Shown piece after piece: positions 30,164-36,484 of a stretch of 50,561 bases of DNA. Source of the stretch: Chloroflexota bacterium (GTDB lineage: Bacteria; Chloroflexota; Limnocylindria; P2-11E); the NCBI GenBank assembly GCA_005880575.1, contig VBIZ01000118.1, positions 1 to 50,561 on the forward strand. The letters run 5' to 3'. Made by a program: the position numbers and the translations under genes. Each line of letters opens with the position of its first letter. The first letter of the stretch is position 1. The notes below the pieces were generated by a model. That model was given only the letters and a program-made list of their open reading frames with translations, ran no database searches and had not been told where the DNA came from.

Positions 30164-30961
30164 CTGGGAGCGCAAACGGCGGCACGCACCGACACGGGGC
30201 GCGTTCGCGAGAACAACGAAGACCGCTACCTCGTCCGCGAGGGAGGCAAGACGACCCTCATCGCGGTCGCCGACGGCGTCGGCGGCGAGGCGGGCGGCGA
30301 GCTCGCGAGCGCCGCCGCGGTCGATGCGCTGGCCGACGGTTTCTTCAGCACGCCGGCGGGCTCGATGACCCCGGCCGAGGCCCTCGCGGCGGCGATCCGC
30401 GGCGCGAACGACGCGGTGCTGGGCGCCGCGGGCAAGAGCGGACAGCAAGGAGCGGCGTCGACGCTCGTCGTGGCGGCGATCGCGGACGGCTCGGCCGCTA
30501 TCGGAAACCTCGGCGACAGCCGCGCCTACCTGCTACGCGACGGCGAGATCCGCCTGGTCACGGCCGACCACTCGGGCGAATACCAGAGCTCGATCACCAG
30601 ATTCGTCGGCGATCCGCGCGGCGTGCAGCCAGACGTGTTCCTCGAGGCGCTCCGTCCCGGTGACCGTCTTCTGCTGTGCTCCGATGGATTGACGCGTCAC
30701 GTCCCCGACGCTGAGATCGCGTCGACAGTGCGACGAACCGACCTCGACCGAGCGGCGACCGCCCTCATCGATCTCGCCAGGTCACGCGGCGGCGAGGACA
30801 ACATCACGGTCGTGCTCTATGCGGCGCGCCGCACGTTCGGCCTCGCGAGCCTGCGTCACAACGTCGTGAACCTCGTCCTTGCGCTGCTGACCGCGGTCGT
30901 CGTTGCCGGCGCGATCGCGGCACTCCTCTTCGCTAGCGGCGCATACCCGACCGCGCGGTAG
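30164..30961 (+). CDS. PP2C-family Ser/Thr protein phosphatase (PstP-like), C-terminal TM
   Basis: TDTGRVRENNEDRYLVREGGKTTLIAVADGVGGEAGGELAS...GNLGDSRAYLLRDGEI...LLLCSDGLTRHV...GGEDNITVVLY; apparent CTG start at 30164 (alternative GTG at 30053). Confidence 0.92.
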   Translation: MGAQTAARTDTGRVRENNEDRYLVREGGKTTLIAVADGVGGEAGGELASAAAVDALADGFFSTPAGSMTPAEALAAAIRGANDAVLGAAGKSGQQGAASTLVVAAIADGSAAIGNLGDSRAYLLRDGEIRLVTADHSGEYQSSITRFVGDPRGVQPDVFLEALRPGDRLLLCSDGLTRHVPDAEIASTVRRTDLDRAATALIDLARSRGGEDNITVVLYAARRTFGLASLRHNVVNLVLALLTAVVVAGAIAALLFASGAYPTAR

Positions 30962-33900
30962 CAAGGAGCCGGGAGAATCCCGGCGAGCTGCTCCACGAGA
31001 TGAGCGCCCCGACCGTCGCCGCGACCGCGAGGGCGAGAGCGACCCGTGCGAAGAGCGCGGAAAACGAGAACGACGACCCGATCGTCGGGTTGCAGACGAA
31101 CGTCGGATAGAACGTGCACTCGTACGTCCACGTCGGAAGGATGAAAAACATCCCGGCCTGGGCGCCCGGGAACGGCTGTGCCGAGATGAACGGATAGAAG
31201 TACGCGAACACCGCCGCGGCGATCGCGAGGTACCCGACAACGAGGCGGGCGCGACCGGTCTCCCACAGGTACGCGAGCCCCGCCGCGAGCGCGAGCAGGT
31301 AGAACGGCAGCACCGTGAAGAAGTGATAGAAGAACAGCACGCGTCCGATCGGAATCCAGGCGACGTACTGCGCCAGACCGGCGAACACGACCACGGCGAG
31401 CGGAACCGACCGCGCGCGGATCGCCGCGACGGCGCACCACCCGAACGCGACGATGCCGGCCCAGAAGAGCGCGACGTTGCCGGCGTCGTATATGTACGCG
31501 TTGTCGCCGCCGCCGGACGCGCCGAAGTACCAGTAGACGGGCTTCAGCACGAGCGGCCAGCTCCACCACGGCGACCCTGCGGGATGCGGAGCGGTCAGCC
31601 CCGAGTGGTACCAGTACATCTGCTGCGTGAGCTCCCAGAGGCTCCAGTTGTAGGGGATCGTCGGGCCGCCAAACCAGCGCACGTAGCTCGCGAGATAGAT
31701 GCCGGCGGGGATCGCGGCGAACGAGATGAAGAGGACGATCGCGTTCAATCCGCGCCGCGCGAAAAGGTCGAGCGGACCGCCGGAGCCGGGGTGTCCGCGC
31801 TCGTACGCGCGCGCCGTGACGGCGAGCGACGCAATCAGCATTCCGGCCAGCGCGTAAGCGCCGGCCCACTTCGCGGCGAGCGCGAACCCGAAGAGCGACC
31901 CCGCGATGACGATGTCGAGCGTCGCCCACCGTCGCGGCCGATGGGCCGCGATCACGAAGTACCAGCCCGCCACGATCAGTGTCGCGACGTAAATGTCGTT
32001 CATGCCGATCCGCGCCTGGGCAAACATCGAACCGTCCGCGAGCACCGCGACACCGACGAGCGCCGGGACGACCGTAGACGCGAAGAGCCGCCGGGCGAGG
32101 AGCACGAGGAGGAACGCGAGCACGGCGGCGAACAGGACCCCGGGCAGCCGCCACGCCAGCGCATGACGGCCGGTCTCGACGAGATCCGCGCCGTTCGCGC
32201 CGGCGACGACGAGCTTGTCGCCCTCACCGTCGACGCCGAGCAGAGTCCCGGTGACCGGGATGGACACGTACGGCGACGACCCGTGCGTTTCGACCACCAC
32301 GATGCGTCCTTCATCGAGTGCGTACAGGAAATCGGTGCGCGGGACGATCGCGAGTGCGGTCGCGCCCGTGGAGAAGGATCCCGTGCGCGCGTTCGCGAGC
32401 GAGACCGCCTCGTGCGAGCCGGACTCGAGCTCGAACACGTCGAGTGTCGGCGCGTCGGCGCGCGCGACGAAGATGCGGTTCGGGCCGAGCGCATACGCGA
32501 TCGCCGTACCGGGACGACCGCCGGTGAGCGCCCGCGTTTCCTGCCCGGTGTCCGCCGAGATGACATGCACGGTCCCCTGCGGGTCGAGGACGTAGAGCTC
32601 GCTGCCGTCCGTCTTCGCGGTGACCGCGACCGTCGCGACCGGTACGAGCGTCGGTTGGGCGTCGAGCGTCGCGTAGATCGCGAGCCCCGCCGGCGCGCCG
32701 ACGACCACACGGTCGCCCGCGAGCGACAGCGAGCGCGCTCCGCCGAACGGCAGCTGAACCGTTTGGAGCTGCGTGTTGCTCGGCGTCTCGGCGAAAGGCA
32801 CGACCACAAGCGATGTGGGGGTCATCACGATCGCGTGGTCGCCCTGGACGGCGATGGCAGATGCGGTATCGCCGAGATTCGCGCGGTCACCAGGACCTCC
32901 GCCACCGCGCGCCCAGACAGTGACGACGCCGTCACGCGACACATACGCGCGGGTGCCATCGCCGGAGACCGCGAAAGCCGCCGGACCATCTCGTGGCACG
33001 CTCTCCCGCCCGACGACTCGATCGTCGCCGAACGCGAGGATCCCGAGCGCCATGATCTCCTTCGCGAGGTGTGGGTGGGTCCACTCGTAGGGCTCGCGCT
33101 GCGCGAGAAGCTCGAACGCCGTCCGTGCGTGATACACCTCGTCGAAGTACATGTCGCGGGGCCAGTCCAGCCGGTAGCCTCGTGACGCGAGGACCGCGAG
33201 GGCGACGAGTGCGGCCACGGTCACGTCGCGACGGGTTGGCAGCCGACCCGGGCCGAGCCCAGGGGGTAGGACCCACGAGCGCTGCCGCGGCCGAGATACC
33301 GCGGCGACATCCCACGCCGTGTCGCTCTCGAGCCGCGTGTCGCCGCGGACGAGGCGCCACACCAGATAGGCGGCTGCGCCCATCATCACGACCGCGATCC
33401 CGATCTGCCCCGTCCGGCCGAAGAGGGTCGCCTCGATGATCTGCGGGACGCGCAGATCGACGTATTGCTCGTACCGCGTGAACGCGTAATAGAGCGAGAG
33501 CGCGAACGTGAGGGCGAGCACCAGGTACGGCACCAGCACGCGCCGGCGCGTGGCGGCGAGCGGCAATGCGAGCGCGAAGACCGGGAAGAGATAGCGCTCG
33601 TGCGCGCGCGTCGGCAGGAAGTAGAACGCGAGACCGGCGAAGACGGCGCACGCGAGGAGCGCGGCCGTATCGCGACGCCACCACAGTGGCAGCGCCGAAG
33701 CGACGACTCCGATCACGAGGAGGAGGCCACCCCAGACGACCAGACCGGCGTCCGGCTTCCAGAAGTCGAAGAAGACCGACCACCCGTTGAACGCGTAGAG
33801 CGACGTGTAGGGGTACGTCTCCGCGGCGCTGCGCACGAGCTGAACGAGCTCGGCCGCGATGCGCGTCGGGTCGGGTCCCCAAAACGGCACGCACAGCACA

Positions 33901-34544
33901 TAGGCGGTCGCGGCGGCGGCGCCCAGCGTCACGCCAAGCGCGCGCCACCGCGCCTCACGGACGAACTCGAACGCGGCGGCCGCCACGATGACGAGCAGCC
34001 CGATCCCGAACTGCGGCTTCACCAGCGCGGCGACTGCGCCGAGCGCGCCCGCGAGCCACCACCGCCGCGAGCCCGCGGCGAGGACGGAGGCGAAGAGCGG
34101 AAGTGTCCCGACCGCATCGACCTGGCCCCAATAGGTGCCCGCGAAGATCGCTCCCGGCTGAAGCGACCAGAGGGCGGCGGCGGCGATGCCCGGAGCGCGC
34201 CCCGCCGTGCGCCAGAGCACGCGCGCCGCGAGGATCGCGATGCCGATGTCGGCGGGTATGGTGATCGCCTTGACCGCGATGCGGAGAAGCTCGCCGTCGA
34301 AAAGGGCGCCGAGAAGCCAGAGGACGTACAGGAACGCGGGCGGGTAGTCGCTGAAATATCCCGGCTCGTAGAAGCGCGCGGGGCCGATCTGCGCGAGCCT
34401 CTCGGCCCACGCCTCGAATGTCCCCACGTCGGTCGGAAAACCCTGCGCGCGCACCGCGAGAAGCCGGATGAGCACACCGAGCGCGATCGCCGCGGCGACC
34501 ACAAGCTGCGCACGGCGGTCGCCGCGCTGCTGGTCCTCGTTCAT
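30933..34544 (-). CDS. GT-C / PMT-like double glycosyltransferase fusion with beta-propeller-like insert (~1203 aa)
   Basis: N-terminal GT-C membrane part (TDVGTFEAWAERLAQIGPARFYEPGYFSDYPPAFLYVLW); second half with PMT-like MYFDEVYHARTAFELL...THPHLAKEIMALGILAFGDD, then ~285 aa of propeller-like beta repeats, then WRLPGVLFAAVLAFLLVLLARRLF...GSMFAQARIGMNDIYVATLIVAGWYF as in PMT proteins. Confidence 0.85.
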   Translation of the reverse strand: MNEDQQRGDRRAQLVVAAAIALGVLIRLLAVRAQGFPTDVGTFEAWAERLAQIGPARFYEPGYFSDYPPAFLYVLWLLGALFDGELLRIAVKAITIPADIGIAILAARVLWRTAGRAPGIAAAALWSLQPGAIFAGTYWGQVDAVGTLPLFASVLAAGSRRWWLAGALGAVAALVKPQFGIGLLVIVAAAAFEFVREARWRALGVTLGAAAATAYVLCVPFWGPDPTRIAAELVQLVRSAAETYPYTSLYAFNGWSVFFDFWKPDAGLVVWGGLLLVIGVVASALPLWWRRDTAALLACAVFAGLAFYFLPTRAHERYLFPVFALALPLAATRRRVLVPYLVLALTFALSLYYAFTRYEQYVDLRVPQIIEATLFGRTGQIGIAVVMMGAAAYLVWRLVRGDTRLESDTAWDVAAVSRPRQRSWVLPPGLGPGRLPTRRDVTVAALVALAVLASRGYRLDWPRDMYFDEVYHARTAFELLAQREPYEWTHPHLAKEIMALGILAFGDDRVVGRESVPRDGPAAFAVSGDGTRAYVSRDGVVTVWARGGGGPGDRANLGDTASAIAVQGDHAIVMTPTSLVVVPFAETPSNTQLQTVQLPFGGARSLSLAGDRVVVGAPAGLAIYATLDAQPTLVPVATVAVTAKTDGSELYVLDPQGTVHVISADTGQETRALTGGRPGTAIAYALGPNRIFVARADAPTLDVFELESGSHEAVSLANARTGSFSTGATALAIVPRTDFLYALDEGRIVVVETHGSSPYVSIPVTGTLLGVDGEGDKLVVAGANGADLVETGRHALAWRLPGVLFAAVLAFLLVLLARRLFASTVVPALVGVAVLADGSMFAQARIGMNDIYVATLIVAGWYFVIAAHRPRRWATLDIVIAGSLFGFALAAKWAGAYALAGMLIASLAVTARAYERGHPGSGGPLDLFARRGLNAIVLFISFAAIPAGIYLASYVRWFGGPTIPYNWSLWELTQQMYWYHSGLTAPHPAGSPWWSWPLVLKPVYWYFGASGGGDNAYIYDAGNVALFWAGIVAFGWCAVAAIRARSVPLAVVVFAGLAQYVAWIPIGRVLFFYHFFTVLPFYLLALAAGLAYLWETGRARLVVGYLAIAAAVFAYFYPFISAQPFPGAQAGMFFILPTWTYECTFYPTFVCNPTIGSSFSFSALFARVALALAVAATVGALISWSSSPGFSRLLATARSGMRR

Positions 34545-35731
34545 TGCCAATACTCGAATCGCGTGATCGCGATCGTGGCATAGATGTTTACGGCGAGCGA
34601 TAGAACGATCGCGAGGATGAAGATGGCCGTGGGCCGGCGGCGCCAGACCCCACGGAAGAGACCGTCCCCCGTGAGCGCCAGCGCGACGAGGAACGGTTGG
34701 GCATCGATGCTGAAGCGGTACCCGAACTGCTGGAATCCCACGGTGCCGTGAAAGAGGTCGGGCAGGAGCGCAAGCAACGCCGCGGTCGCGGTGGCGGCCA
34801 CGGCGACGTCGCGGCGGACCTCGCGAAGCGCCAGGAAGACCCATACGAATGCCGGCGTGGTGAGAAAGAGGCTCATGCCGATGAAGCGCGGGCGCGGGAA
34901 GAAGGGTGTTGCCGGGACAAAGTCGGGCGGCTCTAGAAAGATCGCTTTCAGCTGGCGCAGCAGGTACACGGGCGAGAAGAGCCCCTGATTGAAGAACACG
35001 TCGCCCTGGGTGAGCCGGGCGTACCCCTCATCGAGCGGCGTTCCCCATCTCAACAGGTTGTATCCCACATAGACGATGGCAAAGGGCAGGCCACCGGCGA
35101 CGACGGCGCCGAGAGCGCGCCCGTACCCCGTGCCGCTCCTCCGCGCGCAGAGCAGCGCGAGCGCCGGCGCGGCAAGCGCGACGGGCAGGCGGGCGAGTGC
35201 GGAGATACCGACGAGCGCGCCGACCGCGACGGCGCTGCCACCGCCCGCGGCGACGGCGAAGGCGAAGGACAAGAAGAGCATCGACGCCGAGTGGGCCGCA
35301 AACCAGGCTCGCCCGTCGACGCTCGAGAAGAGGAGCGTGGTCCCGAACGCGGAGAGGAGCGCGCCGGCGAGCGCGTACTTTCGCGGCGCGCCGTACGCCC
35401 GTAGCCCGTAATAAAGGACTCCAGCCGACGCCCCGCCGGCTATCCGGGACGCGACCACCTGCGCGACCGCCGTCGGAAAGAACGGCACGAACGGAAGCGA
35501 CAGGATCGCCGGCAGGGGCGGATAAACGACGCAGTAGCGCCCCTCGCCGCAGGAAAGGAGCTCGTTCAACCAGGGAGGCGCCTCGGTCAGCCACCAGCGG
35601 CCATGGAGGAACGCGTCCGCCAGGCGCCCGTAGTAGTCGTAGTCGGTGGTGAGACCGAGGCCGGCGGCCACGTAGATCCCGGCCGCGATCACACCGATCC
35701 ATATCGCGGCTGCTCTGTCCGACACGGTCAT
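34541..35731 (-). CDS. GT-C-like polytopic membrane protein (putative glycosyltransferase)
   Basis: 396 aa multi-TM; LTTDYDYYGRLADAFLHGRWWLTEAPPWLNELL...YCVVYPPLPAILSLPFVPFF; ATGA overlap with the downstream fusion gene. Confidence 0.75.
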   Translation of the reverse strand: MTVSDRAAAIWIGVIAAGIYVAAGLGLTTDYDYYGRLADAFLHGRWWLTEAPPWLNELLSCGEGRYCVVYPPLPAILSLPFVPFFPTAVAQVVASRIAGGASAGVLYYGLRAYGAPRKYALAGALLSAFGTTLLFSSVDGRAWFAAHSASMLFLSFAFAVAAGGGSAVAVGALVGISALARLPVALAAPALALLCARRSGTGYGRALGAVVAGGLPFAIVYVGYNLLRWGTPLDEGYARLTQGDVFFNQGLFSPVYLLRQLKAIFLEPPDFVPATPFFPRPRFIGMSLFLTTPAFVWVFLALREVRRDVAVAATATAALLALLPDLFHGTVGFQQFGYRFSIDAQPFLVALALTGDGLFRGVWRRRPTAIFILAIVLSLAVNIYATIAITRFEYWQ

Positions 35732-35761: not shown

Positions 35762-36484
35762 GTGCCCGCACGGCTCGACAGCCTCTCCTTCTTTTTCCCG
35801 GCACTCAACGAAGAGGACAACGTCGCGCCGATCGTCGAAGAGGCACTGGTGGTTCTGCCGCGCTTCACCGACGACTTCGAGGTCACCGTCGTCGACGACG
35901 GGAGCAGCGACCGGACCGGCGCGATCGCCGACGATCTCGCGCGGAAGGACCCGCGCGTCCGGGTGATCCATCACGGGACCCGTCGCGGGTACGGCGGTGC
36001 CGTCCGCTCGGGCCTGCGCGCAGCCTCCAAGAACTGGATCTTCTTCACCGACGGCGACCGCCAGTTCGCGCTCGAAGACCTCGCGCTGCTCATCGCGGCG
36101 AGCGATGGCGTCGATGCGGTCGTCGGCTTCCGGAAGAAGCGCGCCGACCCGGCGCGGCGGCTTTTCGTTGCGTGGGTCTACAACCGCCTCATCCGCCTGG
36201 GGTTCGGCGGTGGCTGGCGCGACGTCGACTGCGCGTTCAAGCTCTTCAGAAGAGAGGTGTTCGAGCGCGTGCCGCTCGAGCGGGTGCGCTCCGAGGGTGC
36301 GTTCTTTTCCCCCGAGCTCTTGATCACGCTCCGCCGGGCCGGAATCCGCGTGCGTCAAGTCGGGGTGCGGCACTTTCCTCGCACCGCCCACGAGCCCAAG
36401 GGCGCCTCGCCGCGCGTGATCCTCCGCGCGATCCGCGACCTCCTGCGGCTACGCGCTCGCCTCTGGTTGCATCCAAACAGCTAG
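35762..36484 (+). CDS. GT2 glycosyltransferase, polyprenyl-phosphate mannose synthase-like
   Basis: SFFFPALNEEDNVAPIVEEALVVL...VTVVDDGSSDRTGAIADDLARKDPRVRVIHHGTRRGYGGAVRSGLRAASKNWIFFTDGDRQF. Confidence 0.92.
   Translation: MPARLDSLSFFFPALNEEDNVAPIVEEALVVLPRFTDDFEVTVVDDGSSDRTGAIADDLARKDPRVRVIHHGTRRGYGGAVRSGLRAASKNWIFFTDGDRQFALEDLALLIAASDGVDAVVGFRKKRADPARRLFVAWVYNRLIRLGFGGGWRDVDCAFKLFRREVFERVPLERVRSEGAFFSPELLITLRRAGIRVRQVGVRHFPRTAHEPKGASPRVILRAIRDLLRLRARLWLHPNS

Follow-up and report, generated by a model that had tools for sequence, protein, structure and literature searches.

The window analysed here is the complete 50,561-nucleotide stretch of contig VBIZ01000118.1 from a Chloroflexota bacterium (GenBank assembly GCA_005880575.1), and the gene in question lies on its minus strand and encodes a protein of 1203 residues. 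By its sequence the protein is a fusion of two glycosyltransferase (GT) modules of the GT-C type in tandem, first GT87-like and then PMT/GT39-like (PMT, protein O-mannosyltransferase). Its domain layout is GT87 – PMT(N) – propeller – PMT(C), in which a predicted beta-propeller separates the first transmembrane helix (TM1) and loop 1 of the PMT module from its second helix (TM2). The peptides MYFDEVYHARTAFELL and THPHLAKEIMALGILAFGDD correspond to residues 465-480 and 489-508 of the translation. The insert comprises 289 residues (509-797), bounded by the motifs FGDD, ending at 508, and WRLPG, starting at 798.

Table 1. Features of the fusion gene and its immediate neighbours (positions in the window)
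Feature	Position	Strand	Evidence
GT87-PMT fusion gene (1203 aa)	30933..34544	minus	open reading frame, translation, Pfam; ATG 34544, stop 30933
GT87-type GT-C module, residues 1-420	33285..34544	minus	PF09594, invariant columns
PMT(N): TM1 and loop-1 helices, residues 428-508	33021..33263	minus	Pmt1 alignment, invariance in 54 rows
D468-E469 codons, presumed catalytic DE motif	33138..33143	minus	invariant; aligned to Pmt1 DE
Predicted seven-bladed beta-propeller insert, residues 509-797	32154..33020	minus	AlphaFold2, Foldseek, 1l0q profile match
PMT(C): TM2 onward, residues 798-1203, with RIGMND 845-850	30936..32153	minus	PF02366, PF16192
Polytopic protein, 396 aa, directly upstream of the fusion	34541..35731	minus	4-nt stop/start overlap
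GT2, divergent neighbour of the fusion locus	35762..36484	plus	PF00535 3e-28

The second module was assigned to the PMT family on the following features: (i) a match of PF02366 (PMT) at residues 791-952, scoring 31.1 bits at a gathering cut-off of 22.7; (ii) a match of PF16192 (PMT_4TMC) at residues 969-1139, with 42.8 bits at a cut-off of 32.4; (iii) yeast Pmt1 as the top PDB profile match of the fusion family (E 2.9e-15), aligned through FDEV and HPxLAK; (iv) the residues D468 and E469, H490, P491 and K495, and R845, I846, M848, N849 and D850, all invariant in an alignment of 54 sequences. The catalytic-loop motif reads HPHLAK and occupies residues 490-495. In most genomes of family f1, one of the five families (f1-f5) in which the layout was read, the fusion is the sole strong PMT-family match. 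Pfam found no MIR domain in the fusion; the beta domain sits in loop 1, whereas MIR belongs to loop 4.

Modelling of the insert with AlphaFold2 on 39 relatives gave an all-beta structure of 28 strands with no helix before TM2, at a pLDDT of 94.6 and a pTM of 0.91. The strands are arranged in seven four-stranded blades, and the insert is accordingly predicted to be a seven-bladed beta-propeller. The top solved structures retrieved by Foldseek are WD40 propellers (E 4e-12), with TM-scores of 0.76 to 5yzv and 0.75 to the designed seven-bladed protein 7big, and by sequence profile the closest solved chain is that of 1l0q, a propeller from an archaeal S-layer (E 1.6e-9). No Pfam family, including the WD40 and YVTN propeller-repeat models, matched the insert. 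In one related locus (L053, 7504-8514, with the same sequence in L026) the propeller holds an exact 33-residue tandem repeat, ELYALDSAGIVHVVAGDTAAEARALTGGRPGQA twice, of about one blade, which is either a blade duplication or an assembly repeat.

The full-length AlphaFold2 model (pLDDT 86.2, pTM 0.81) places the last loop-1 helix up to about residue 505, the first propeller strand from about 510, the end of the last strand at about 790 and TM2 from about 794, with block pLDDT values of 87-91 at both junctions. The linkers between the propeller and its flanks, the loop-1 helices and TM2, are only about 3-4 residues long. Since its ends adjoin the loop-1 helix and TM2, both would be kept near the membrane, on its catalytic-loop side, and in the model the propeller lies in PMT loop 1, extracytoplasmic and beside the catalytic DE motif. 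A Foldseek search with the full-length model returned soluble propeller-type proteins for all of its best 50 matches and provides no independent test of the GT-C fold.

Sixty-six sequences of families f1-f5, from many independent genomes, were found to have this layout, and 100 of the 101 sampled genomes of the source's class match the fusion protein. The layout is present in all lineages sampled of this class of soil and freshwater Chloroflexota, probably the Limnocylindria, and it is also retained in the genomes of about 1.1 Mb of family f5. The inserts always occur in frame at one and the same junction, and their length is 278-336 residues in f1 and f2, 307-315 in f5, 333-359 in f4 and 334-539 in f3. 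The insert profiles of f1 and f3 match with a probability of 98.9%; by sequence these inserts are homologous, and their common junction is beyond chance. The direct match between f1 and f4 is weaker and partial (68.8%, 61 columns), while a mixed-family profile built from f1, f2, f4 and f5 inserts spans the f4 inserts end to end, f4 rows being part of that profile. Searched in 201 genomes of the phylum, the mixed-family profile detects the insert in all of the listed class members and, outside the class, gives only weak partial matches, the best at E 3e-10 and all within frames of 362-1162 residues.

In PMTs lacking the insert, the gap between loop 1 and TM2 amounts to 3-5 residues in nine proteins and 27 in one lineage of f22, counted over insert-less rows with a matched loop-1 segment, the remaining rows having no clear loop-1 match. 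The gap of 3-5 residues applies both outside the class and to ordinary PMT paralogues within it, namely four f4 proteins (L137-L140) of 505-534 residues with neither insert nor GT87 module. In the maximum-likelihood phylogeny of PMT cores, a branch with support 100/98 has all 66 insert-bearing rows on the same side. This sequence-based tree fits a single gain of the insert before the class diversified, its root not being independently set. Close relatives were also sought in 85,462 species genomes; besides Chloroflexi loci that have the layout, this search yielded one PMT from Clostridiaceae, which lacks the insert.

Variants of the fusion occur in several genomes. Two giant fusion paralogues in f3 genomes, L142 (2616 aa, G057) and L141 (3001 aa, G071), keep the insert and carry more than 1000 further residues each. 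Another giant paralogue, the second fusion copy in an f4 genome (L075 in G032), likewise keeps the insert and groups with L142 in the tree. In G007 the fusion is broken within the insert into two overlapping frames (L023/L051; 531 or 812 and 803 aa), probably by a frameshift in the assembly.

The first-pass annotation of this gene, made from the sequence alone, described a PMT-like mannosyltransferase with a propeller-like domain of about 285 residues (nt 32155-33020) in its first extracytoplasmic loop. This description agrees with the Pfam matches, the structure prediction, the PDB profiles and the comparison with insert-less PMTs: the peptides it quoted all fall in one uninterrupted minus-strand frame, the insert measures 289 residues (nt 32154-33020), and a propeller is modelled at a pLDDT of 94.6 within a GT-C/PMT context given by Pfam and the Pmt1 profile. 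It had further stated that in bacterial PMTs this segment normally runs straight into the next TM helix, and by the gaps reported above the passage is indeed almost direct. The points it named for checking gave DE and HPxxxK motifs invariant over the 54 sequences, 66 sequences with the same insertion between FGDD and WRLPG, and a layout shared by many independent genomes, which excludes chimerism. The earlier reading was incomplete: it had missed that a GT87 module is fused at the N-terminus, that a GT2 lies next door and that the layout is conserved across the class. The layout is real, ancient and class-wide and gives a known kind of enzyme a new domain architecture; we infer the function of the enzyme, as we do the acceptor-recognition or scaffold role put forward earlier for the insert.

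The N-terminal module matches PF09594 (GT87) at residues 67-306 with 27.8 bits, at a gathering cut-off of 25. Its conserved residues are D39, Q141, D143, K176 and HER 315-317, which are read as putative catalytic residues by analogy with PimE (PMC12041525). D39, Q141, D143, K176 and H315 are invariant and, by their order along the chain, may correspond to the catalytic Asp at the loop-1 helix and the Lys/His phosphate ligands of PimE. The genome from which the window comes has four further stand-alone GT87 genes, on contigs C124, C62, C21 and C96.

Two genes accompany the fusion on its upstream side. The 396-residue polytopic protein is encoded clearly beside the fusion in f1 and f2 (53-89% identical), with weaker matches in many f3 loci; it has no Pfam or PDB match and represents an uncharacterised family linked to the fusion, possibly GT-C-like. 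The GT2 protein matches ArnC, DPM synthase and sll0501 in the PDB, and its sequence resembles polyprenyl-phosphate sugar synthases. The GT2 gene adjoins the fusion across f1-f5 in most loci with a long enough flank.

In mycobacteria, PMT adds the first mannose to Ser/Thr from polyprenyl-phosphate mannose and PimE, a member of GT87 (PMC8476585), extends it (PMC12331936, PMC7053730). The fusion of GT87 and PMT modules next to a synthase-like GT2 suggests a mycobacterial-type O-mannosylation pathway within one chain, and the sequence and models point to a bifunctional GT-C enzyme in the cytoplasmic membrane. In the proposed mechanism a sugar, probably mannose, would be linked to polyprenyl phosphate by the GT2 neighbour and placed by the PMT half on Ser/Thr of exported proteins as the first sugar; the GT87 half would add a further sugar, as PimE does after PMT. 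The propeller may cap the PMT active site and position the acceptor or the sugar-bearing product, a role equivalent to that of the eukaryotic MIR domain, though exerted from loop 1 instead of loop 4. The proposal as a whole, a polyprenyl-phosphate-sugar-dependent protein O-mannosyltransferase with an initiating PMT half and an extending GT87 half, is given an even chance. More tentatively, and with somewhat less than an even chance, the fusion could be an O-glycosylation machine specific to this class. One polypeptide would then both start and extend the glycan, and the propeller would be an independently evolved bacterial counterpart of MIR, serving to select acceptors or to make transfer processive.

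Each part of the protein has relatives among known systems. The M. tuberculosis PMT (Rv1002c/MtPMT, GT39) shares PF02366 and PF16192, the loop-1 DE and HPxxxK motifs, and extracytoplasmic catalysis is expected for both. However, MtPMT stands alone, and bacterial PMTs have been described as having no bulky soluble domain of the eukaryotic kind (PMC12331936), in contrast to the fusion with its loop-1 propeller and GT87 module. In the eukaryotic Pmt1/Pmt2/Pmt4 and POMT, too, a soluble beta-domain lies close to the active site of a PMT core. This domain is a MIR beta-trefoil; it sits beside the active site, which it covers or frees, and is attached between TM7 and TM8 by flexible linkers of about 20 residues (PMC12705809), whereas here a predicted seven-bladed propeller lies between TM1 and TM2 on linkers of about 3-4 residues. 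As the propeller would occupy the face used by MIR, though from loop 1, acceptor or product handling is the best guess for its role. PimE shares the GT87 family but is a separate protein, while here GT87 is fused to PMT with no direct PDB sequence match. EmbB and related arabinosyltransferases are also GT-C enzymes bearing extracytoplasmic beta domains; these are beta-sandwich carbohydrate-binding modules (CBMs), the N-terminal one anchored by two extra TM helices before the GT-C core (PMC7341804), unlike the beta domain inserted in PMT loop 1. The S-layer protein 1l0q and the WD40 and YncE propellers share the seven-bladed fold but are free or surface-layer domains, not part of a membrane glycosyltransferase. 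No precedent for a propeller combined with a PMT or GT-C enzyme was found in the open-licence literature.

In the present case a whole bacterial class carries a PMT soluble domain of another fold, in another loop and fused to GT87, which offers a natural experiment on acceptor choice by PMTs and on the coupling of initiation to extension. The fusion is also a marker of a conserved system of surface glycosylation among soil and freshwater bacteria that are abundant and uncultured.

Several observations weigh against the O-mannosyltransferase proposal. The fusion scores 41.3 bits against the NCBIfam PMT equivalog NF058602, whose cut-off is 800, and is for that reason not called an equivalog of characterised PMTs. 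A PDB search found no sequence match for the GT87 part, including to PimE. How the propeller would sit over the active site is deduced from its short linkers. Moreover, the propeller is the fastest-evolving part of the protein, with identities of 52% (within f1) and 17% (to other families), compared with 84% and 48% for the catalytic loop. Its class-wide constants (E752, G755, D772, G792, W798, R799) cluster in the final blades and where the chain leaves for TM2; being few and so placed, they reveal no clear conserved ligand pocket. This pattern of sequence divergence fits a binding or scaffold domain with a fixed anchoring and a variable face.

The same divergence, together with the conserved exit blades, also suits a propeller that serves as a docking platform for another protein, such as a Sec/translocon partner, an S-layer or wall protein or a partner glycosyltransferase, and touches neither acceptor nor sugar. 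Propellers are common protein-binding scaffolds, and the top sequence-profile match in the PDB is an archaeal S-layer propeller. Docking fits nearly as well as acceptor or product handling, although the short linkers by the loop-1 helices place the propeller at the catalytic entrance, a costly position for mere docking; overall this explanation is regarded as rather unlikely. A lower probability still is assigned to an enzyme that builds a surface polysaccharide or glycolipid, where the GT87 and PMT halves would add successive sugars and the propeller would bind the growing glycan like the CBMs of EmbB. GT-C enzymes with carbohydrate-binding domains do act on glycans, EmbB among them (PMC7341804), three-component GT2/flippase/GT-C systems modify glycans (PMC11127046), and a further polytopic protein forms an operon-like pair with the fusion. 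Nevertheless, the matching families are PMT and PMT_4TMC, not those of the ArnT or Emb type, and the best PDB relative is Pmt1.

The lowest identity among the domains would be expected of an insert that is a neutral passenger with no role, but the insert is in frame at one junction across five families, reduced genomes of about 1.1 Mb included, and keeps class-wide constants in its last blades, so that a passenger is very improbable. The source is a metagenome-assembled genome, and an assembly chimera or an artefact of joined frames was considered as well. It was rejected with virtual certainty, as dozens of assemblies, made independently in many studies, share the layout, among them genomes of few contigs such as G032 with seven.

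On the other side of the fusion lie genes for a PASTA kinase, a PP2C phosphatase, G6PD and OpcA, a block conserved in f1. The fusion and PP2C genes overlap tail to tail by 29 bp (30933-30961).

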